From Corallococcus soli (GTDB taxonomy: Bacteria; Myxococcota; Myxococcia; Myxococcales; Myxococcaceae), in contig NZ_JAAIYO010000015.1 in assembly GCF_014930455.1 (NCBI RefSeq), positions 1 to 64,000 on the forward strand: a DNA stretch of 64,000 nt, in the 5' to 3' direction. A program made the translations under genes and the position numbers. Every line of letters starts with the position of its first letter. Position 1 is the first letter of the stretch. The notes beneath the pieces are model-generated. The model was given only the letters and a program-made list of their open reading frames with translations, searched no databases and was not told the DNA's origin. Below, one piece after another: positions 26,538 to 41,635 of the stretch.

Positions 26538-28394
26538 ATGACCAACCCCATTCGACGCGCCCTCGCGGCGCTGCTGACGCTGACGTGTCTGGGGGCGCTG
26601 TCGGCCCAGGCCGCCACGGGTGTGCAGGGCCCCGTGCCTCCCGCGTTCCAGAACCGCCTGATGGTGGGCCTCTTCGAGGAGGCCGGCCAGAACTGGATGC
26701 GCGACAGCGACGTCCCGTGGGACGCGCGCTACCGCTACTTCACCAAGGGCTGGGCGGACAACTGGGGCTATGGCGCCCGCGACGGTGCCTGGGCCACCAG
26801 CTTCTTCACCGAGACGAAGGCGCAGGGCTTCGTCCCCGTCGTCACCTACTACCAGCTCTTCGGTGAGCCGGGCGGTGGCGAGCAGCAGACGCTGGCGAAG
26901 CTGAAGAACGCCACCACGATGCGCGCCTACTTCGAGGACGTGAAGCTGCTCCTCCAGCGCGCGAAGGCCTACGAGGGCCCCGTCGTCGTGCACGTCGAAC
27001 CCGACGCCGTCGGCTTCCTCCAGTTCCAGACGAACTCCAACCCCCACGCCTCCGCGGCCATCGCCGCCTCCGGGATGCCGGAGCTCGCGGGCCTGCCCGA
27101 CACCGTCGCGGGCTGGAGCCTGGCGTTCCTCCAGCTGCGCAAGGCGGTGGGCGCGAACAACGTCGTGCTCGGGCTGCACATCTCCGCCTGGGCCAGCGGC
27201 AAGGACATCGCGTTCAACTCGCTCACGGATCCGCTCCAGCCGGAGGTGGACAAGGTCGTCGCGTTCATCAACCCGGCAGGGCTCGCGGCCAACGTCACGG
27301 GCTCCACCTACGACGTGCTCGTGGGGGATCCGCTGGACCGCGACGCGGACTTCTACCGGCTCACGCAGGGCGCGGACCACACCTGGAACATGAGCGACAC
27401 GGCGTCCATCACGTCCCGCTCCTACAACCGCTACGCGGAGTGGCTGCGGCTGTTCAACCAGACCACCGGCAAGCGCTGGGTGCTGTGGCAGATCCCCCTG
27501 GGCAACTCCAACCACCTCAACGTCAACAACAGCGGCGGGGCGCGCCAGGGCTACAAGGACAACCGCACCGAGTACTTCTTCGGCGCGAGCGGCGACGCGC
27601 ACCGGCGCAAGTTCGCCAACGTGGGCGTCATCGCCCTGATGTACGGCGCGGGCGCGGGCGGTCAGAGCTCCTACCAGAACGACCTCGCCACCGACGGACA
27701 GCCCTACCTCAAGAAGCGCGCGGGCGCGTTCCTCCAGGCCGGCGGACTCTCCCTCCCCGCGGCCGGCACCACCCTGCCGCCTCCGGGCGGCGGTACGCCC
27801 GATGCGGGCACGCCACCTGTCGACGCCGGCACGCCCCCCACCGACGGCGGCGTGGACGGCGGCACCGATGGCGGCGTGGACGGCGGCACCCGGCCGGATG
27901 CGGGGACGACGGATGGCGGCACCGGTTCGTCCGATGCGGGCACGTCCTCCGACCCTTCGAAGTACGGCTTCGAGTCCAGCACGCAGGGGTGGAGCGCGTC
28001 CGGCGCCGCCCTCTCGCCCGTCAGCACCAGCACCTCCAAGGCCTACGCGGGCACCCGTTCGCTGGCTGTGACCTTCAATGGAACCTCCGGCAAGGGCACC
28101 GTGGCCGTGGCCAACGCGGCCGTGCCGGCGGGCAGGACGGTGACGTTCCGCTTCTGGCTCCCCACCGGCAGCAAGCTCCTCGGCGTGCAGCCCTACGCGC
28201 TGGAGGGCGCGGCCGCGAACTGGCGCTGGACGGGCACCTGGTTCGCCGTGGGCAGCCTCAAGGCGGGGGCCTGGAACACCGTCACCGTGAAGCTGCCTTC
28301 GGGGTCCACCACGCCCCTGTACCAGTTGGGCGTGGAGTTCCAGACGAGCGGCACCTGGAAGGGAACGGCGTACCTCGACGCCGTCACCTGGTAG
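26538..28394 (+). CDS. Secreted multidomain protein: GH-like domain, Asp/Gly/Thr linker, C-terminal carbohydrate-binding-like domain
   Basis: A 618-residue exported protein. A signal peptide (MTNPIRRALAALLTLTCLGALSAQA) precedes a ~390-residue domain with glycosidase-like features: RLMVGLFEEAGQNWM, VVVHVEPDAVGF (possible acidic catalytic residue), VVLGLHISAWASG and KRWVLWQIPLGNS. I could not assign it to a known family. A ~70-residue linker of DAGT and DGGVDGGT repeats (DNA repeats around 27,790-27,950) leads to a final ~140-residue beta domain (GFESSTQGWSASG… YLDAVTW) typical of carbohydrate-binding modules. The alternative start at 26508 lacks a better signal. A polysaccharide-degrading role is inferred. 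Confidence 0.75.
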   Translation: MTNPIRRALAALLTLTCLGALSAQAATGVQGPVPPAFQNRLMVGLFEEAGQNWMRDSDVPWDARYRYFTKGWADNWGYGARDGAWATSFFTETKAQGFVPVVTYYQLFGEPGGGEQQTLAKLKNATTMRAYFEDVKLLLQRAKAYEGPVVVHVEPDAVGFLQFQTNSNPHASAAIAASGMPELAGLPDTVAGWSLAFLQLRKAVGANNVVLGLHISAWASGKDIAFNSLTDPLQPEVDKVVAFINPAGLAANVTGSTYDVLVGDPLDRDADFYRLTQGADHTWNMSDTASITSRSYNRYAEWLRLFNQTTGKRWVLWQIPLGNSNHLNVNNSGGARQGYKDNRTEYFFGASGDAHRRKFANVGVIALMYGAGAGGQSSYQNDLATDGQPYLKKRAGAFLQAGGLSLPAAGTTLPPPGGGTPDAGTPPVDAGTPPTDGGVDGGTDGGVDGGTRPDAGTTDGGTGSSDAGTSSDPSKYGFESSTQGWSASGAALSPVSTSTSKAYAGTRSLAVTFNGTSGKGTVAVANAAVPAGRTVTFRFWLPTGSKLLGVQPYALEGAAANWRWTGTWFAVGSLKAGAWNTVTVKLPSGSTTPLYQLGVEFQTSGTWKGTAYLDAVTW

Positions 28395-32879: not shown

Positions 32880-35800
32880 CTAGCGCCGCAGCATGCCGCG
32901 CAGCAGCTCCAGCGCCTCGGTGATGCCCTGCCAGACCTGGAGGGCCTTGATGCCCTCCCCTTCGCCCTGCACGTTGCGGCGGGCGGCGCGCTCCAGCGGC
33001 AGGAGCGCCCCTTCCACCAGCTCGATCTGCCGGCTCAGCTCCGCCGGAGTCGGGCCGCTCGCCGCGCGCTGCAGCGACTCCGCCGGGGATGGGGCCGGCA
33101 TGGACACGGACACCGGCCGGTCCGCCAGGGCGGTGATGGCGTGGGAGAGCTGCGCCAGGTACGGCCCGAAGTCAGGGGCCGGCGCGGCCAGCGGGACGTT
33201 CCTCAGCGTGGGCGCCTCGGACGCGGTCGCCACGCGCTCCGTGAGCGCCTTGAGCAGCTGCGCCATGTGCTTGAGGTACGGCGCCAGGTCCGTCGCCGGA
33301 GCGGACGGGACGACCACCGGGGCCGGGGCCGGGGGAATCGGCGGCGGCTTCGCGGCGGCCTCGCGGCCCACGCGGGCCACCTCCAGGACGGCCTCGCGCA
33401 GGGCCTCCAGGTGCGGGGCCACCTCCACCATGGGGTCGACGTCGGGGGCGCTGCCCGCCTGGGCCGCGGCCTGGACCACGGCGTCGCGCACCGCGCCCAG
33501 CTGCTCCTCGATGGCGCCCAGCTGACCGGTGACGCGCGCCACGGGGTCGTCCTCCTTGCCCCCCATGCGCTTGACGCGGGCGAAGCCCTGCTTGATCTCC
33601 TCCCAGCGCTTCGCCTTCTCCGGCGTCAGGCGCCCGCGCATCTCCGCCAGCTTGAGCAGGTTCTGCTCCGCGGCGGTGGTGAGCGTCTGGGACTCGCCCT
33701 GGTAGTGGTCGTCGATGCGGCGCTCCAGCTCGTCGTCCGTCATCGCGGAGACGACCTTCTCCGCCATCTTGTTCATGTTGCGGTAGCTGCCCTGCAACTT
33801 GAACGCGGGCTCCGAGCGGAAGCGCTCGTCCTGCGCGGCGGACGCGATGTACTGGAGGTTCACCTTGAGCAGCACCTGCTGCACGCGGAACAGGCGCTGG
33901 AAGACGGCGACGATCTCCTGGAGCTCCGCCGCCGCGTAGCCGTGCTTCAGCTCGCCCGCGGGCACCTCCTCGCCCTTCGCCATCCGGATGAGGCGGTGCA
34001 CGTCCTGGGGGTCTCGCGTGCCCAGCGGCGCCAGCACCGGGTTGGAGGTGAGCGCGTTCTCCAGGTAGCTGAGCGCGAACAGGTCCTCCTTGCCGTCCAG
34101 GATGTCACCCAGGTTGTACGTGTCCGCGCGGTTGGCGAGCATGTCCGGGATGCGGAAGCGGTCGCCCGTCTCCGTGTACGGGTTGCCCGCCATCACCACG
34201 CAGAACTTCTTGCCGCGCAGGTCATACGTGCGCGTCTGGCCATTCCAGACACCCTCCACGCGGCGCTGGCCGTCGCACAGGGAGATGAACTTCTGGAGCA
34301 GCTCCGGATCCGTGTGCTGGATGTCGTCGAGGTAGAGCATCACGTTGTTGCCCATCTCGAAGGACAGGTTGATGCGCTCCACCTCCTGCCGCGCGGTGGC
34401 GTTGGGCGCCTCCGACGGATCCAACGACTTCACGGAGTGGCCCAGCGCCGGCCCGTTCACCTTGACGAAGGTGAGGCCCAGGCGGCTGGCCACGTACTCC
34501 ATCAGCGTCGTCTTGCCGTAGCCCGGGGGCGACATGAGCAGCAGCATGCCCATGCGGTCCGTGCGCTTGCCCTCGCCCGCCGCGCCCAGCTGCTTGGCCA
34601 GGTTCGCGCCGATGAGCGGCAGGTACACCTCGTCGATGAGCCGGTTGCGCACGAAGCTCGTGAGCACCTTGGGCGTCAGCTCCTCCAGCCGCAGCTTGCG
34701 CCGCTCCTTGTCCAGCAGGTCGCGCAGGTACGCGCGGTACGCCAAATAGGCGGGCACGCGCACCTGACGGAACTCACCCAGCCGGGACAGGAACTCGTCC
34801 AGGCGCAGGGGCAGCTTCCGGTCCTGCACGCGCGGGTGGCTGCCCAGCAGGCCCGTGGCCTCCGAGGACGTGATGGCGCCCGCCGTCTCGCGGTCCAGCT
34901 TGCGCTCGGTGATGAGCACCACCGCCGCCTCCAGCGACACGTAGGCCGCGTCGCCCGCGCCCCCCTCGCGCTTCGCGAGGAACGCGTCCACCCAGGCCCG
35001 CGCGATGCGCAGGCGCTCCGGCAGGTTCTTCTCCAGGCCGCGCAGGTCCTCGTCGAACGCGGTGCGCGAGCCGTGCCGGTCCAGGTGCGCGAGGAAGGCG
35101 TCCTTCACCGCCAGGGCCTCGCGGCTGGTGGTGAAGCGCGGGTGCTCCACCGCCAGCTCCTCCACGAGGTAGCGGCCCGCCTGCCGCCCCTCCGCCGGTG
35201 ACGCCGCGAGCCCGTGGCCCTTGAGGAAGGCGAGCACCTGTTCGCCCAGCTCGTCGCCCAGCGCCACCAGGTCCGACGACGTGTCGAACGCCTGGCGCAG
35301 CCGCCCCAGGCTCTGCGCGCGCCGGTGGAACACGCCCCGGAGCGTCTCATCCGCGTCGAACGCCCAGTAGAGCGCGGCCCAGGCGCGCGGCACCGGGGCG
35401 AAGCGCAGCAGGCCCGCCCCCTGGTGCAGCGGGAGCAGCTTCTCCAGCAGCGTCACCGCGTCCGCGTCGTGCACGCCGCGCTCGTAGCCCTCGTCGAAGC
35501 GGTCCGCGGAGTACGCCCGCACGCGCTCCAGCAGCTGGCCCTGCGCGCCGCCCTCGTACAGCGCCGCGAGCGTCAGGCCGCCCCGGCCCTCCTCCGCGTC
35601 CATCAGCAGGGCCGCGGCCAGGTACTCCGCGCGGTAGACGTCGCGGGTCTCGGAGACGAGGTGCTGCTCCCAGAGCTCGCGGTACTTGAGCAGCTCCGGG
35701 TCCTCCAGCTTCTGCGTGTAGTCGGAGCCGGTGAGCTGCAGGTACAGCGCGCCGTCGCGCGGCACCAGCGTCAGGTCCAGGGGCTGGGTGTTGACGTGGA

Positions 35801-38420
35801 AGCGGTAGGGCCCCAGCTTGATGAGCCCCTCGCCGCCCTCGAACAGGTCCTGCCGGTCGCGCAGGGCGCGCAGGGCGTCCTGCTTGGCGGACTTCACCCG
35901 CGACATCACCTCGTCCGAGCGCACGCTGTCCTGCAGCGCCAGGAGCTGCTCGGCCAGCTGCCGCAGCTTGAGGATCATCGCGTCGGACGCGAAGTAGGCG
36001 TTGAGCTCGTCGTCCGCCTTGAAGCCCTTGGCCCGCCGCTGCACGCCCTGGAGGATGCGCTCCGCGGCGCTGAAGAGGCCGGAGGCGCGGCGCTGGCGCT
36101 CGTCCACCAGCGACTGCTTGCGCGCGCCGAAGGCCTCCAGCAGCTCCTCGCGCTTCGTGGTGATCTGCCCCAGGAACTCGTCGAACTCGCCGAAGCGGCC
36201 CTCCAGCTCCTCCAGCATCACGGTGAGCCGCGACAGCGCCTCGTCGCACTTCTCCGGCGCGTCCGCCTGGGACAGCGCGTTCTCGATGCTCTGGCCCAGC
36301 AGCTTGAACTGCGCGCCGAACTCCGCGCGCTTCTCCCGGCTGCTCAGCTCCTTGCGCCGCGCCTGGAGCCCCGCGCGCACGCGGTTGAGGCGGCTGAACA
36401 GCTCGGAGATACCCTCCAGGATGCGGGCGCGCGCCAGCGGGTCGCCCACCTGGAGCCCGCCCACCACCTCGCCCAGCACCTCCAGGCCCTGGCCGGTGCG
36501 CTCCACGTCCTCCACCAGCGGCGCCAGCTCCGCCGTCGTCGTCACCGGCTCCAGCCGCTCCAGCAGGCCATCCAGCCGGGCCGCCAGCGGTTGCAGCGCC
36601 TCCCCCTTCTGGAGGAAGTCCACGCACGCGGTGCTCACGGCGTCGGACGCGGCCACCACCGCCTGCTCCAGGGCGTCCACGCGCCCCAGGTCCATGTAGC
36701 GGACGTCCTTCAGGGTGATGAGGTGCCCGCGGTGCCGGCGCAGCTCCGCCAGCGCCCGCATGTAGCCCTCCGCGTCGGTGAGCCCCTCCGGCTGTGACTG
36801 GAGCAGCAGCGTGTCCTGCGCCGTCACCGCCTGCGCGAGCGACTCCTCCGCGCGCTTGCGCATCGCGAGGACCTTCTCGAACTCATCGATGATGAGCTCG
36901 GAGGTGCGCCGCAAGAGTTCAATGGGCTCCTGGAGCCCGACCTCCGCGTGGTTCAGCCAGTAGTACGCGTCCAGCGCCCGCGTGGCCGCGGACACCAGGT
37001 CCTCGTAGGTGCGGCGGGTGGGCTTGTCCGTCCTCGCCACGCGCGGCAGCGTCAGCGCGTCGCTGATGCCGCGCACCAGCTCCGCGTTGCCCACCTTGCC
37101 CAGGTAGCCGGGCGCGGGGGGCAGCCGCGCCGCGTGCTCGTCGGAGACGAACGGCGTCTGCCACACCTGCATGGGGTGCACGCGCGTGGGCTCCTGCGAC
37201 GTGGCGCGGAACACCACCAGCCCACCGTCCGCGAAGAGGCTCATGCCGTTGGCGACCAGCGGCGTCTGCACCTCCTTGCGCACCAGGTTGTACGGGAACA
37301 ACACGTAGTGGCCCTCGTCCCGGCGGTGGAAGACGTAGAGCACGTCCTCGCCGTTGGGTGAGCGCACCGCCTGGTGGAACTCCATCTGCTCCGACGCGCC
37401 GTCGAAGACCTTGTAGTCGCCCGTCTGGAGGTAATAGCCGCCCGGGAAGACGATGCCCTGGTCCTCCGGAAGCCGCACGCAGGACTGCCCGATGGCGTCA
37501 ATGCGCACCACGTGCTGGGTGCGCGCGTTGAAGACCAGGTAGCGGTGCGCCTTCTCCCGGAACGGCAGAACGCGCAGCAGGATGATGCCGCCCACCTTCG
37601 TCCAGGCGAACTCCGCGTCGTCCAGCGCCTGGTCCGGGTCGTCCACCGGCTCGCTGTAGATGCCCAGACCCGTGGCGGTGTTGTCCTCCACCTTGATGGT
37701 GAGGTCGCCCTTCACCGTCTCCACGAACACTTGATCCAGCACGTTGACGTGCGGGTGCTGGCCCAGCACGTACTGCTCACGCGTGGCCACCGTCCACTCG
37801 AAGTCGTGCGACGGCGGGTAGACGTGGTCGCGCTCGCCCTGGTTGTCGACGTAGGTGGCGTGGCCCTCCACGTCCACGTTGAAGCGGAAGACCTTGAGGT
37901 CGCGCGCGGACAGGCCCGTCTGGAACACCGCCAGCAGGCGCGAGTCCCGCCGGCGCAGCTGCAACAGCTTCGCGTCCTTGTAGTACTTGTACAGCTCACC
38001 GAAGTCCTTCACGAACCGGGGGTCCGCGAGGAAGCCGCCGGCCTCCGTGGAGGGCACGGCGGACAGGTCGAAGCCCTCGGCCGTCTTCTCGAAGCGGTGC
38101 AGCGAGAAGACGTCCGAGACGACCGTCTCCTTCTTCAGGCCGATGAAGACGTTGTAGCCGAAGAGGAGGTACTTCCCGACGCTGACGATGTCGCGCGGGA
38201 CGCAGTTGTTCTCCGTGCGCACCCGCTCGTTGCCGATGACGGTGAGTTCCGTGCCACCGAACAGCGCCTTGCGCCGCCCGTTGAGGTCGTTGGCGCGGGT
38301 CGCCAGTGCGTCCGCCTGGGAGTGGAGGCGCGCACGGATGACCTCGTAGCTGCCGCCCTCCAGCGTCGCCTCGCCCCCGGGCACGGAGGTGCCCGGGGTC
38401 TTGCCGCTGTCAGTTGCCAT
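32880..38420 (-). CDS. Giant AAA+ ATPase (1846 residues; DUF3686/'DNA repair ATPase' type)
   Basis: The N-terminal ~450 residues (starting about VIRARLHSQADALATRANDLN) match what I recall of the DUF3686 region and look beta-rich. A long helical part follows (about 470-860), with coiled-coil segments such as REELLEAFGARKQSLVDERQRR. The AAA+ domain lies at about 1270-1520, with Walker A SPPGYGKTT near residue 1300, Walker B NVMLYLDDIQ, sensor CVVMAGNP and a candidate arginine finger in RFRIPDMLANR. The C-terminal ~250 residues alternate helices with a Pro/Ala linker. No membrane segment. The 'DNA repair' label of relatives rests on weak grounds. It is the last gene of an operon with an SPFH protein and a DUF1449/NfeD-like protein; 61 bases separate it from the SPFH gene. 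Confidence 0.85.
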   Translation of the reverse strand: MATDSGKTPGTSVPGGEATLEGGSYEVIRARLHSQADALATRANDLNGRRKALFGGTELTVIGNERVRTENNCVPRDIVSVGKYLLFGYNVFIGLKKETVVSDVFSLHRFEKTAEGFDLSAVPSTEAGGFLADPRFVKDFGELYKYYKDAKLLQLRRRDSRLLAVFQTGLSARDLKVFRFNVDVEGHATYVDNQGERDHVYPPSHDFEWTVATREQYVLGQHPHVNVLDQVFVETVKGDLTIKVEDNTATGLGIYSEPVDDPDQALDDAEFAWTKVGGIILLRVLPFREKAHRYLVFNARTQHVVRIDAIGQSCVRLPEDQGIVFPGGYYLQTGDYKVFDGASEQMEFHQAVRSPNGEDVLYVFHRRDEGHYVLFPYNLVRKEVQTPLVANGMSLFADGGLVVFRATSQEPTRVHPMQVWQTPFVSDEHAARLPPAPGYLGKVGNAELVRGISDALTLPRVARTDKPTRRTYEDLVSAATRALDAYYWLNHAEVGLQEPIELLRRTSELIIDEFEKVLAMRKRAEESLAQAVTAQDTLLLQSQPEGLTDAEGYMRALAELRRHRGHLITLKDVRYMDLGRVDALEQAVVAASDAVSTACVDFLQKGEALQPLAARLDGLLERLEPVTTTAELAPLVEDVERTGQGLEVLGEVVGGLQVGDPLARARILEGISELFSRLNRVRAGLQARRKELSSREKRAEFGAQFKLLGQSIENALSQADAPEKCDEALSRLTVMLEELEGRFGEFDEFLGQITTKREELLEAFGARKQSLVDERQRRASGLFSAAERILQGVQRRAKGFKADDELNAYFASDAMILKLRQLAEQLLALQDSVRSDEVMSRVKSAKQDALRALRDRQDLFEGGEGLIKLGPYRFHVNTQPLDLTLVPRDGALYLQLTGSDYTQKLEDPELLKYRELWEQHLVSETRDVYRAEYLAAALLMDAEEGRGGLTLAALYEGGAQGQLLERVRAYSADRFDEGYERGVHDADAVTLLEKLLPLHQGAGLLRFAPVPRAWAALYWAFDADETLRGVFHRRAQSLGRLRQAFDTSSDLVALGDELGEQVLAFLKGHGLAASPAEGRQAGRYLVEELAVEHPRFTTSREALAVKDAFLAHLDRHGSRTAFDEDLRGLEKNLPERLRIARAWVDAFLAKREGGAGDAAYVSLEAAVVLITERKLDRETAGAITSSEATGLLGSHPRVQDRKLPLRLDEFLSRLGEFRQVRVPAYLAYRAYLRDLLDKERRKLRLEELTPKVLTSFVRNRLIDEVYLPLIGANLAKQLGAAGEGKRTDRMGMLLLMSPPGYGKTTLMEYVASRLGLTFVKVNGPALGHSVKSLDPSEAPNATARQEVERINLSFEMGNNVMLYLDDIQHTDPELLQKFISLCDGQRRVEGVWNGQTRTYDLRGKKFCVVMAGNPYTETGDRFRIPDMLANRADTYNLGDILDGKEDLFALSYLENALTSNPVLAPLGTRDPQDVHRLIRMAKGEEVPAGELKHGYAAAELQEIVAVFQRLFRVQQVLLKVNLQYIASAAQDERFRSEPAFKLQGSYRNMNKMAEKVVSAMTDDELERRIDDHYQGESQTLTTAAEQNLLKLAEMRGRLTPEKAKRWEEIKQGFARVKRMGGKEDDPVARVTGQLGAIEEQLGAVRDAVVQAAAQAGSAPDVDPMVEVAPHLEALREAVLEVARVGREAAAKPPPIPPAPAPVVVPSAPATDLAPYLKHMAQLLKALTERVATASEAPTLRNVPLAAPAPDFGPYLAQLSHAITALADRPVSVSMPAPSPAESLQRAASGPTPAELSRQIELVEGALLPLERAARRNVQGEGEGIKALQVWQGITEALELLRGMLRR

Positions 38421-38481: not shown

Positions 38482-40641
38482 CTAGCCCTGCTTCTCGAGG
38501 AGGGCCGAGGCCTCCGTCTGCACCAGCGCCTTGATGCCGGCGGCGGTGGAGGCGGTGGGGCTGAGGGACATCCGGTTGAGCAGCGCGGCGACGGCCAGGT
38601 TCTGCGCGTCGTTGCTGAGGCCCGGCTTGGAGAGGATCTCCTTCAGGTCCGCCGGCAGGTCCTTCTCACCGTTGAGGTAGCCGCCGAGCGTCTTCTTCAG
38701 CGCCTCGCTGTGGTCCAGCGCGCCGTCCACGGAGCTGCCGAAGGAGACGGCCTTGATGAAGTTCTCGAAGAACTTCCCGTCGCCACCGACGATCTGGAAC
38801 TTCGCGTTGCTGAAGGCCTGACCCAGCACCTGGGCCTGCGCCTGCGCGATGTCCTTGCGCACGTTGATGGCCGCCAGCTCCACGTCGCGCTCCTTGTTGA
38901 GGCGCAGGCGGTACTCCTCGTGCTCGCGACCCACGCCGTCCAGGGCCTTCATCGCCGTGGCCTTCTCCGACAGGCCCCGCGCCTCGGCCATCAGCTTCTC
39001 CTGGATGGCGGCGGCCTCGGCGAGCAGCTTCTCGCGCATGGCGAACGCCTCGGCCTCGCCGCGCTTGTGGATGGCGCCGGCTTCCGCCTCCTGCACGCGG
39101 GCCTGGGCCATGCCCTTCTCTTCCAGGCCGGACGCCTCGGCGAGCAGCTTCTCGCGCGTCGCGGAGGCCTGCGCCTGGCCCTGCTTCTGGATGACGGAGG
39201 CCTCGGCCTCCTTCACGCGCACCTGCGCCATGCCCAGCTTCTCCGTGGCGACGGCGTCGGCTTCACGCACGCGCACGTTGGCGAGCCCCTCGGCGGCGGA
39301 CTCGGCCTGGATGCCCTCGGCCAGGCGCATCTTCGCCTTGGCCGACTTGTCCGCGGCCTCCAGGTCCGCCTCGGCCAGGGTCAGCTTCTCCTTGGCGAGG
39401 AAGACGGCGATCTTCGCGCTGGCGTCCGCGGCGGTGACGTCCTTGACGGACGCCTCTTCCGCGTGGCCCTGGGCGGCGATGATGAGCGCGTCCTTGTTGC
39501 GCCGCGCCTCCGACGTCACGCGCAGGTCCTTGATGTTCTCCTCTTCCTGGGCGACGGTCTTCTCCACCGCGATGCGGGCGCGCACCACGTCGGCGATGGC
39601 CTTCTTCTCCCCCTCCAGCGCCTTCTCCTTGGAGATGCGCTGCATCTCCGTCTCGCGCTCGCGGTTGATGGCTTCCAGGGCGCGGTCCTTCTCCACGCGC
39701 TCGGTCTCCACGCCCACCACGCGCTCGCGGTTCTTCTGCGCCACCTGCACCTGGCGCGTCTTGTTCTCCTCGTTGATGGCGATCTCTTCTTCCGCCTTGA
39801 TGCGCGCGAGCTGCGCCTTGGCGAACTCCTCGCTCTTCACGCGGTCGGCCTCGGCCGTCTCACGCGCCTGGATGATGTCGATCTCCCGGCGCTGCTTGGC
39901 GGCGGCCTCTTCGCGCTGACGCTGCAGGGCGAAGATGGCCTCGTCGGCTTCCACGTCCCGCTTCGTCACGGCCATGCGCTCGGACTGGCGCAGCTCGTTG
40001 GTGAAGACGTTCTGCTCGGTGGTCAGCTGGGTGATCTTCCGGATGCCCTGGGCGTCCAGGATGTTGTCCTTGTCGAGCATCTCCACCGGGGTCTGCTCGA
40101 GGAAGTCGATGGCGCAGTCCTCCAGCATGTAGCCGTTGAGGTCGCGGCCAATGGTCTCCACGACCTTGTCCTTGATCTCATCGCGCTTGGTGTAGAGCTG
40201 CTCGAAGTCGAAGCTCTTGCCCACCGTCTTGAGGGCTTCGGAGAACTTGGCCTCGAAGAGGTTCTCCAGCGTCTCCTGATCACTGGCGCGCACGCAGCCG
40301 ATGGACTGGGCGACCTTGAGCACGTCCTCGCGGGTCTTGTTCACGCGCACGAAGAAGGTGACCTTGATGTCCGCCCGGATGTTGTCCTGGCAGATGAGGC
40401 CTTCCTTGCCGCGACGGTCGATTTCAACCGTCTTCAGCGAGATGTCCATCACCTCCGCGCGGTGGACGATGGGGAGGACGACGGCGCCGGTGAACGTCAC
40501 CGTGGGCTCGGTCTTCATCGTGTTGACGATGAGCACCTTGCCCTGATCCACCTGGCGGTAGAACTTCGCCACGCTGACGAAGATGCCGAAGAGGATGATG
40601 ATGCCGCCACCGACGATTGCTGCCAGGCTGATGGGATCCAT
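38482..40641 (-). CDS. Flotillin/YqiK-type SPFH membrane protein
   Basis: A 719-residue protein. One membrane helix lies at about 5-27 (LAAIVGGGIIILFGIFVSVA) and an SPFH/band-7 domain at about 30-215 (GKVLIVNTMKTEPTVTFTGAVVLPIVHRAEVMDISLKTVEI-like). A very long Ala/Glu-rich coiled coil runs from about 240 to 640, with recurring EAxAxxxREKLLAEA blocks, and a flotillin-like C-terminal segment ends the protein. Flotillins oligomerise at membrane microdomains. It is longer than Bacillus FloT or E. coli YqiK, mainly through repeats in the coiled coil. The ATG at 40641 has AGGAAGG at good spacing. It sits between the DUF1449-like and giant ATPase genes. Confidence 0.92.
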   Translation of the reverse strand: MDPISLAAIVGGGIIILFGIFVSVAKFYRQVDQGKVLIVNTMKTEPTVTFTGAVVLPIVHRAEVMDISLKTVEIDRRGKEGLICQDNIRADIKVTFFVRVNKTREDVLKVAQSIGCVRASDQETLENLFEAKFSEALKTVGKSFDFEQLYTKRDEIKDKVVETIGRDLNGYMLEDCAIDFLEQTPVEMLDKDNILDAQGIRKITQLTTEQNVFTNELRQSERMAVTKRDVEADEAIFALQRQREEAAAKQRREIDIIQARETAEADRVKSEEFAKAQLARIKAEEEIAINEENKTRQVQVAQKNRERVVGVETERVEKDRALEAINRERETEMQRISKEKALEGEKKAIADVVRARIAVEKTVAQEEENIKDLRVTSEARRNKDALIIAAQGHAEEASVKDVTAADASAKIAVFLAKEKLTLAEADLEAADKSAKAKMRLAEGIQAESAAEGLANVRVREADAVATEKLGMAQVRVKEAEASVIQKQGQAQASATREKLLAEASGLEEKGMAQARVQEAEAGAIHKRGEAEAFAMREKLLAEAAAIQEKLMAEARGLSEKATAMKALDGVGREHEEYRLRLNKERDVELAAINVRKDIAQAQAQVLGQAFSNAKFQIVGGDGKFFENFIKAVSFGSSVDGALDHSEALKKTLGGYLNGEKDLPADLKEILSKPGLSNDAQNLAVAALLNRMSLSPTASTAAGIKALVQTEASALLEKQG

Positions 40642-40756: not shown

Positions 40757-41635
40757 TCATCGATGCGAGCGGGCTCTCGCGACGGCCGCTGCCTTGAGCG
40801 GATCGCGAAGCTGCTCCATTTCCTGGGGCAGGAGCCAGTCCACCGGCTCCACCTCGTAGACACCGCGCTCCGCGTCGTAGCCGAGGATCAACGCCGGCTC
40901 GCCGCGCTTGAGCTGGTTGGGCTTCTCACAGACGACGTTGAGGATGAGGCCGGCGGCCCCGTCGTTGAAGGTCGCGTGGCCGTCACGCGCCGTGACGCTG
41001 CCACTGGAGATGTTGCACACGCGGCCCATCAGGGCCTCGCGCCCCGGGGCGCGCTTGGCGATGAAGACGGGCCGCAGGGGGCGCACCGCGAAGCCGGCCA
41101 CCGTCGTGCCCACCGCGAAGCACCCCAGGCCCAGGCCCGTGCTGATCAGCCACGAGGGGAGCATGGAGAGCGCCTCGTGCGTCACCTGCCCGGATAGCAG
41201 CGACAGCGACCAGGACAGGAACACGACCAGGCTCACCGACACCGTGATGGGGATGCCGCCGAAGCCCAGCGCCGCGAGCAGGCCCGTGGCGGCCTCCGCG
41301 TCATGCAGGTGCGAATGTCCGGCGTGGCCGTGTCCCGCCACGGCCTTCGCGCCGCCCTCCAGCAGCCCCGACGTGGCCTTGGCCCCGCCCTCGAACGCGC
41401 CGCCCACCGCCTTGGCGCCGCCCTCGAAGGAGCCGCTGATCGCCTTGGCCCCCCCCTCGAAGGCGCCGCCCACCGCCTTGGCGCCGCTCTCCAGGTCCAC
41501 GTGGACGTCGCCGTCCAGCATGTCGATGCCCGCCGCGCCGATGATCACGCACAGCCAATAGGCCAGCACCACCCCCAGCAGGATGGTGAAGATCGCGGTC
41601 GGGAACGCCACCAGGGCGTCGAGGAAGGTCGTCAT
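40757..41635 (-). CDS. DUF1449/YqiJ-NfeD-like membrane protein with 11-residue repeats
   Basis: A 292-residue protein, first gene of the flotillin operon. Helix 1 is at about 10-34 (FPTAIFTILLGVVLAYWLCVI). Residues 48-102 hold five tandem 11-mers of the form F/L-E-G-G-A-K-A-x-x-G-x. A His-rich HGHAGHSHLHD (102-112) follows, then two or three helices (about 118-200) and a C-terminal OB-fold (about 205-270: ALMGRVCNISSGSVTARDG… EPVDW). The helices plus OB-fold match YqiJ/NfeD-type flotillin partners; the repeat insert is not something I know from them. The start at 41635 was chosen because it begins the first helix and lies downstream of the divergent topoisomerase start. Confidence 0.82.
   Translation of the reverse strand: MTTFLDALVAFPTAIFTILLGVVLAYWLCVIIGAAGIDMLDGDVHVDLESGAKAVGGAFEGGAKAISGSFEGGAKAVGGAFEGGAKATSGLLEGGAKAVAGHGHAGHSHLHDAEAATGLLAALGFGGIPITVSVSLVVFLSWSLSLLSGQVTHEALSMLPSWLISTGLGLGCFAVGTTVAGFAVRPLRPVFIAKRAPGREALMGRVCNISSGSVTARDGHATFNDGAAGLILNVVCEKPNQLKRGEPALILGYDAERGVYEVEPVDWLLPQEMEQLRDPLKAAAVARARSHR
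41330..41494 (-). repeat. Five tandem 33-bp coding repeats (11-residue units)
   Basis: Units on the protein are LESGAKAVGGA, FEGGAKAISGS, FEGGAKAVGGA, FEGGAKATSGL and LEGGAKAVAGH. Spacing is exactly 33 bp without gaps, and units 2-4 are highly similar in DNA as well. The 11-residue period fits three turns of an extended amphipathic helix of the type that lies on membranes. Confidence 0.9.

Follow-up and report, generated by a model that had tools for sequence, protein, structure and literature searches.

An 11-residue repeat array in the first loop of an NfeD2/YqiJ-type flotillin partner of Myxococcaceae, a candidate membrane-surface helix

Introduction

Membrane proteins with the same C-terminal NfeD OB domain are encoded beside flotillins in the NfeD2-SPFH2 operons of Escherichia coli (YqiJ-YqiK) and Bacillus subtilis (YuaF-YuaG). 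PMC2636767 describes YuaF and YqiJ as NfeD homologues in operon with YuaG and YqiK. Eleven-residue repeats are a feature of lipid-surface proteins of animals. Perilipin 4, perilipin 3 and alpha-synuclein have 11-mers with low hydrophobicity, few large residues and a 3-11 helix moment similar to those described below, but they lie free or peripheral on droplets and vesicles. Cavin1, a eukaryotic caveola coat protein, has an undecad repeat in its UC1 domain that is reported to bind phosphatidylserine (PMC9231606), and the title of the original UC1 paper terms the domain variable. Here we describe an array of 11-residue repeats in a myxobacterial flotillin partner. To our knowledge, the action of bacterial flotillins and their NfeD partners on lipids is unsettled. 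Among the open-access matches listed (titles and starts of abstracts), none describes these repeats, and no open-access paper was found on NfeD in myxobacteria or using the word DUF3686.

The flotillin partner and its gene set

The window (the whole stretch of 64,000 nucleotides of Corallococcus soli that was analysed, within a genome of 9.4 Mb) contains a partner-flotillin pair that is of a known kind, given the NfeD-SPFH operons of PMC2636767. Its relevant features are the following.

40757-41635, minus strand (stop codon included): NfeD2/YqiJ-like flotillin-partner membrane protein, 292 aa (translation, OB fold, SPFH gene downstream)
41513-41599, minus strand: predicted membrane helix 1, residues 13-41 (AlphaFold2 model)
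41171-41248, minus strand: predicted membrane helix 2, residues 130-155 (AlphaFold2 model)
41060-41155, minus strand: predicted membrane helix 3, residues 161-192 (AlphaFold2 model)
40826-41050, minus strand: NfeD-type OB domain, residues 196-270 (AlphaFold2 model, Foldseek and VIA-align)
38482-40641, minus strand: SPFH/flotillin protein, YqiK-like, 719 aa (Band_7 match and YqiK identity)
32880-38420, minus strand: DUF3686/AAA ATPase, 1846 aa, last of the three conserved genes (Pfam, E 2.4e-201)

The likely start of the partner gene is the ATG at 41635, in line with the orthologue starts, and the stop is at 40757; the longer ORF is an upstream extension. The AlphaFold2 model (48 sequences) has a mean pLDDT of 77.4 and places the strands within residues 206-264. 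Foldseek gave as best match the QmcA-YbbJ SPFH-NfeD complex (8z5g, E 8.8e-4, with a low global TM-score of 0.18/0.35), followed by the NfeD protein YuaF (2k14, E 8.2e-3). In VIA-align, 3wwv (Z 10.3), 3cp0 (Z 10.1) and YuaF (Z 8.2) scored above other OB folds (Z about 6), and 8z5g reached Z 7.0 over 135 residues. QmcA is presumably the SPFH1 protein YbbK. YbbJ is assigned to NfeD1, the partner group of SPFH1 and not of SPFH2, in PMC2636767. Comparison of profiles (hhalign) with E. coli YqiJ gave E 4.1e-5 (probability 69.9), and Pfam YqiJ_N matched one distant relative at E 0.013, weaker than its cut-off. No Pfam or NCBIfam family matched the partner protein at E up to 1, and its profile found two chance-level rows only among solved structures (E 1.5 and 9.2). 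Both VIA-align and Foldseek detect the C-terminal NfeD OB fold of an NfeD2/YqiJ-type partner, and on the model the protein is of this type, with three predicted membrane helices followed by the OB domain. The first-pass annotation had called it a flotillin partner, and the adjoining gene bears this out, the protein being the partner of a YqiK-like SPFH protein.

This flotillin is 28% identical to E. coli YqiK over the aligned part (E 3e-33) and matches Pfam Band_7 at E 1.9e-4 (22 bits, slightly under the cut-off of 23.6); its profile matched no solved structure at E up to 0.1. A flotillin homologue was found beside the partner in 49 of the 50 loci of the genome collection (counting L128, where the two are about 1.6 kb apart) and in all 12 loci of a second set. 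Myxococcus xanthus AM003 (L093) is among the genomes with the gene pair. Downstream of the flotillin, 45 of the 50 loci have the DUF3686/AAA ATPase, so that the conserved set comprises three genes; among the five loci without it, three had at most 130 bases past the flotillin, L127 lacked a flotillin, and in L128 no ATPase was seen in 2.2 kb. The partner-flotillin(-ATPase) set also occurs in Pseudomonadota. The E. coli pair differs from the one described here in that YqiJ is devoid of the 11-mers and no DUF3686 AAA ATPase is annotated beside yqiJK in the stretch viewed. The C-terminal half of the flotillin has a tandem repeat of its own (120 nt or 40 residues, about two copies, 38992-39261, minus strand), and a 24-nt tandem repeat (about two copies, 96% matches) is found at 27839-27890. 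The record of Comamonas sp. KCTC 72670 (L103) carries a Myxococcus-like operon on a 55,650-base contig, sized as one in the family genome G066; this record is probably mislabelled or mixed.

The repeat array

In translation, residues 48-102 of the partner are five 11-mers without gaps, as listed here with the adjoining linker.

41330-41494, minus strand: array of five 11-residue units, residues 48-102, in a loop predicted to be cytoplasmic by positive-inside counts
41462-41494, minus strand: unit 1, LESGAKAVGGA
41429-41461, minus strand: unit 2, FEGGAKAISGS
41396-41428, minus strand: unit 3, FEGGAKAVGGA, identical to the consensus
41363-41395, minus strand: unit 4, FEGGAKATSGL
41330-41362, minus strand: unit 5, LEGGAKAVAGH
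41300-41332, minus strand: His-rich linker HGHAGHSHLHD, residues 102-112 (His count differs among genera)

The self-identity of the loop at lag 11 has a z of 8.4 against composition shuffles, and arrays of 33 nt and 66 nt are detected at this place by Tandem Repeats Finder (scores 169 and 217), so the array is beyond chance. The units had been described as five exact 11-mers; their spacing is exact, but the consensus given for them is matched by only one of the five. As also claimed, every unit combines one acidic and one basic residue with a bulky first position, namely Leu or Phe at position 1, a single Glu at 2 and a single Lys at 6 (5/5). The array (55 aa) has fractions of 0.29 Gly, 0.42 hydrophobic, 0.05 aromatic and 0.18 charged residues, and a net charge of 0. 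AlphaFold2 draws a helix over residues 48-99, with a confidence by block of 39-59; for a distant orthologue, whose array is longer, it draws helices over 43-94 and 103-128 (42-64). The array had no homology to solved structures at E up to 1. The His-rich segment begins within unit 5, at residue 102. Metal binding by this segment was considered as the core function and rejected; orthologous loops have between 0 and 7 His, and 13 of 78 have none, so metal binding cannot be the general function.

Conservation and change of the period

Matches to the partner (E up to 0.001) were found in 81 of the 96 genomes of the family. We extracted 80 orthologues (L001, L003-L081) and analysed 78, since in L072 and L077 the start was not found; the longer form for L072 (L115) has lag 11 as its best (z 6.2), and in L183, which comes from the genome of L077, a clear period is lacking. 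The best self-similarity lag was 11 in 59 of the 78 loops, 8 in 11 loops and another value in the remaining 8, mostly short ones. Successive lysines are spaced by exactly 11 residues in 168 of 217 cases and by 8 in 21. Copy number varies between species within one genus, with 3 to 5 Lys per loop in the genus of the window, 2 to 6 in genus g19 and 3 to 8 in g26. The repeat units thus stay in register across most of the family while their number varies, and neither loss of the repeats nor free spacing is general. The 11-residue spacing on which the first-pass annotation had built is kept in most of the family, except for one clade that has an 8-mer instead. The repeats are real and conserved, within an operon of a known kind.

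A tree was built from the conserved parts of 42 orthologues and five outgroups and rooted at the midpoint, beside the outgroups, with some long branches unsure. It includes nine of the 11 period-8 rows, and these form one clade (97/94), nested in a larger clade (96/94) together with period-11 genera; a further clade, mostly period-11, lies outside the larger one. This nesting suggests that period 11 is probably the older one in the family, with a single change to 8. The period-8 clade retains E-GG-x-K. A dependence of array length on flotillin length (ring size) was rejected, with r = -0.09 over 38 of the 50 loci. The correlation omits L107 and L115, where the contig end truncates the flotillin, L122, for lack of the start motif, and nine further loci, L123-L125 and L127-L132, whose loop end did not fit the pattern or whose gene was cut.

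A search of the phylum matched 91 of 195 genomes at E up to 1e-8, of which 81 belong to the family, one to the same class and nine to the rest of the phylum. The loops of the ten matches outside the family were read by autocorrelation. L175 (2438-3397, minus strand) has GVAD repeats at lags 8, 12 and 4, and L177 (857-1768, plus strand) a 12-residue unit; lags 8 and 4 appear in L179 and L173, and lag 4 in L174 and L176. The period is weak or absent in L172 (lags 4 and 9, z 3.2), L178, L180 and L181. In the Nannocystaceae locus L124 (4239-4964, plus strand) HGDxG recurs at period 5 (z 4.6). Seven loops from Pseudomonadota, 19-32 residues long, had no clear period (best z 2.9), and no 11-residue repeats precede the matching LNIGRLP motif in E. 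coli YqiJ. The varied periods among relatives point to the loop as a place where repeats arise. Within Myxococcaceae, the 11-mer is the commonest repeat form.

Side of the membrane and amphipathic pattern

We applied the positive-inside rule to the 78 orthologues, assuming three membrane helices. The mean number of Lys plus Arg is 0.08 before helix 1, 3.79 in loop 1 (a count that includes the repeat lysines and is not needed for assigning the side), 0.26 in an 18-residue part of loop 2 and 4.68 in the 22-residue stretch preceding the OB domain. This final count exceeds that of loop 2 in all 78 proteins, and loop 2 has at least two such residues in only one of them. By these counts, the repeat loop is predicted to be cytoplasmic in 78/78 orthologues.

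To describe the pattern within the units we used lysines with another Lys 11 residues away, numbering the phased Lys as position 6 (hence 100% Lys there by choice). The sample comprised 234 units from 11 genera, weighted by genus and with the period-8 genera left out. Large apolar residues occupy position 1 in 83%, position 5 in 43%, position 8 in 37%, position 11 in 16%, position 2 in 7% and position 9 in 1%. Acids are found at positions 2 (41%) and 10 (49%) only, and positions 3, 4, 7 and 9 have small residues in 94-100% of the weighted units. In 3-11 helix geometry, positions 5 and 8 fall 33 degrees to either side of 1, and positions 2, 6 and 10 at 98-164 degrees from it. The acid shifts between positions 2 and 10 among lineages, both being four residues from the Lys. 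Among 14 genus representatives (period-8 included), acid and base lie at an offset of +4 in 27 cases and of -4 in 29, where about 7 were expected, a level reached in 0 of 2000 shuffles. Offsets of +7 and -7 are also frequent (23 and 16 times against about 6.5), because the four-residue offset combines with the period; +1, -1, +2, -2 and -3 never occur, and +3 twice.

The hydrophobic moment of the loop core is maximal at 97-99 degrees in g1, g19, g7, g26, g12, g4 and g22, seven of the 11 representatives that lie outside the period-8 clade. The other four (g8, g5, g9 and g18) peak at other angles, with g8 still at z 3.2 at 98.2 degrees. A sequence of period 11 can peak only near multiples of 32.7 degrees, so a peak at about 98 is one choice out of few. 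Mean moments over 18-residue windows, compared with shuffles, have z of 2.4 to 7.9 in these 11 representatives and 0.4 to 1.6 in the 11 period-8 loops. In the period-8 representatives the moment at 98-100 degrees does not reach significance (z -1.5 to 1.8). Of these, g20 has its peak at 95 (z 1.8 at 98.2), which g3 and g6 do not. Given that this clade lacks a coherent face, not every orthologue needs a helix face. The sequences also show a strand-like period. In the ten period-11 representatives that were scored, moments at 163.6 degrees range from 0.11 to 0.28, and in g5 this moment exceeds the 98.2 value; among the 11 period-8 loops, 10 have their strongest harmonic at 180 degrees. A strand-like reading is therefore compatible with these numbers.

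For the window protein the array has a moment of 0.39 and a mean hydrophobicity of 0.22, and with flanks (61 residues) the moment is 0.32, with an averaging that differs in detail from that of PMC5889406. Table 1 of that paper gives moments of 0.30 for alpha-synuclein, 0.35 for Plin3, 0.257 for Plin4 and 0.39 for apoA-I; the same paper reports that 66-aa Plin4 constructs are cytosolic in cells. Plin4 is devoid of bulky residues and relies on how its polar side is patterned, according to PMC8064757. The partner protein did not match Pfam Perilipin (PF03036) at E up to 1, and the orthologue L112 reached E 0.8 with 9.1 bits, where the cut-off is 33. Net charge of the loop cores ranges from -8 to 0 (mean -2.0). 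Cores that are neutral or acidic are not expected to be attracted to anionic lipid by net charge, and this, besides its eukaryotic setting, separates them from cavin1 UC1, which likewise has 11-residue repeats in a membrane-coat protein and serves as an analogy only. The gap-free 11-residue period with an apolar face at the 3-11 angle is found in the window protein and in 7 of 11 genera, is weak in four and is absent from the period-8 clade. The synuclein- or perilipin-like helix of the first-pass annotation therefore stands in part. With an amphipathic face across genera and a moment within the published range it suits the pattern of the family well, but it covers neither the period-8 clade nor other Myxococcota, and membrane binding and the sensing of packing defects are its conjectural side.

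Selection on the array

We calculated pN/pS for within-genus pairs of equal array length only; these pairs share ancestry and are not independent. Array and OB part compare as 0.08 vs 0.18 in the window's genus (g1, 68 pairs), 0.33 vs 0.23 in g19 (58), 0.41 vs 0.15 in g7 (6), 0.10 vs 0.14 in g5 (1), 0.09 vs 0.09 in g3 (4), 0.18 vs 0.06 in g6 (3), 0.29 vs 0.26 in g26 (1) and 0.41 vs 0.40 in g4 (3). The array ratio is above that of the OB part in g19, g7 and g6. By these ratios the array is constrained about like the folded domain in some genera and less in others. Between units of the same gene, pS (0.49) is larger than pN (0.22), and unit conversion could be lowering pN.

Explanations for the array

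Our preferred reading for Myxococcaceae, held tentatively and at somewhat less than an even chance, is a conditional, tethered surface helix in a repeat-prone loop, with lipid contact as its conjectural part. The first cytoplasmic loop of the NfeD2/YqiJ-type partner would be held to the membrane at both ends. Next to the flotillin ring its Gly/Ala-rich array, probably unfolded when alone, would fold on the inner leaflet as a weakly amphipathic 3-11 helix. The lipid side would then be formed by positions 1, 5 and 8 (Phe/Leu/Val/Ala) and the cytoplasmic side by Lys 6 with Glu 2 or Asp/Glu 10, with small residues elsewhere. Perilipin helices are free and the 55-aa loop is tethered, and tethering would replace the length and avidity that they require; by this analogy, anchoring on either side may let the loop do without the length of free Plin4. 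Duplication or loss of whole units would alter the copy number, tuning the footprint of the helix. We consider it doubtful, as a wider proposal, that myxobacterial flotillin assemblies have their own perilipin- or cavin-like helix in the NfeD partner, whose array would set the grip of the ring on the inner leaflet or its thinning, and might so affect flotillin assembly, while unit number and length evolve fast.

The same loop could instead contact protein and not lipid. It would be a helix of hendecad (4-4-3) or octad/tetrad (4-4) type, with Gly or Ala at intervals of 3-4 residues, packing on partner or flotillin neighbours round the ring. Since periods built of fours and one three suffice for packing, this would explain 4, 8, 11 and 12 alike, including those of the phylum relatives and of the period-8 clade, and the i+4 spacing of acid and base, the small residues at positions 3, 4, 7 and 9 (94-100% of weighted units) and the SPFH-NfeD complex QmcA-YbbJ as best Foldseek match are in its favour. 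Packing of small residues, however, does not require the consistent apolar stripe of the 11-mers, copy number differs among species of one genus, and loop length is uncorrelated with flotillin length (r = -0.09, 38 loci); overall, protein contact appears somewhat unlikely. We regard as unlikely, and more so, a loop that is mostly spacer, i.e., a flexible Gly/Ala linker that changes by replication slippage under selection for a soluble and roughly neutral composition only. The variation in copy number within the window's genus and within g19, the single change of the unit itself from 11 to 8, the low AlphaFold confidence in the array, and the absence of a clear period in the seven Pseudomonadota loops (19-32 residues) and of such repeats in E. 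coli YqiJ would all suit a spacer. It accounts poorly for the excess of pS over pN among units (0.49 and 0.22), for pN/pS of 0.08-0.41 between species, and for the shift of the acid between positions 2 and 10, in which phase and i+4 charge spacing are preserved. The 11-residue Ala/Gly/Lys units are also reminiscent of group 3 LEA proteins, and similar 11-mers exist in other proteins of the family, so that one may think of a stress helix that folds upon drying and protects the spore membrane. This is very improbable, as the partner matches no Pfam family, LEA included, at E up to 1, a predicted membrane helix holds the loop at either end, and the gene set is also present in Pseudomonadota, where no repeat was seen.

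If the array is a tethered surface helix, the amphipathic 11-residue solution of animal lipid-surface proteins would appear also in a bacterial SPFH system. The orthologues form a natural series, with about 2 to 8 Lys-bearing units, two unit lengths and relatives with none, that provides a ready test of the loop. Across these relatives, this one loop has been rebuilt on repeat periods of 4, 5, 8, 11 and 12 residues.

Similar 11-mers in other proteins

Searched against its own genome, the array matched eleven places at E up to 10. Besides its own gene, only a 523-aa protein stood out (L002, 835-2403, plus strand), with matches to eCIS_core and to a putative metallopeptidase (DUF6782) and about four similar 11-mers (GAKAVGGAIAD). 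Of the other nine places, L163-L166 and L169-L171 looked unrelated, L168 is the opposite strand of the array, and the ninth is L167. Proteins of the eCIS_core type with such 11-mers were also found in other genomes of the window's genus, and a search with the 523-aa protein gave matches in 29 of the 96 family genomes, partner orthologues included. The presence of 11-mers in unrelated proteins fits a generally useful helix motif, and equally a habit of composition. Frames of 326-420 aa end in tails of 11-mers, for example VADGAKDVGNK and IADGAKKVGSA, with an aromatic residue after them at the C-terminus or close to it, and these resemble amphipathic membrane tails. They are located as follows.

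L192, 1101-2288, minus strand: frame with 11-mer tail
L195, 123-1334, plus strand: frame with 11-mer tail
L196, 1115-2293, minus strand: frame with 11-mer tail
L197, 1052-2029, minus strand: frame with 11-mer tail
L198, 1143-2216, minus strand: frame with 11-mer tail
L187, 1127-2386, minus strand: frame with 11-mer tail
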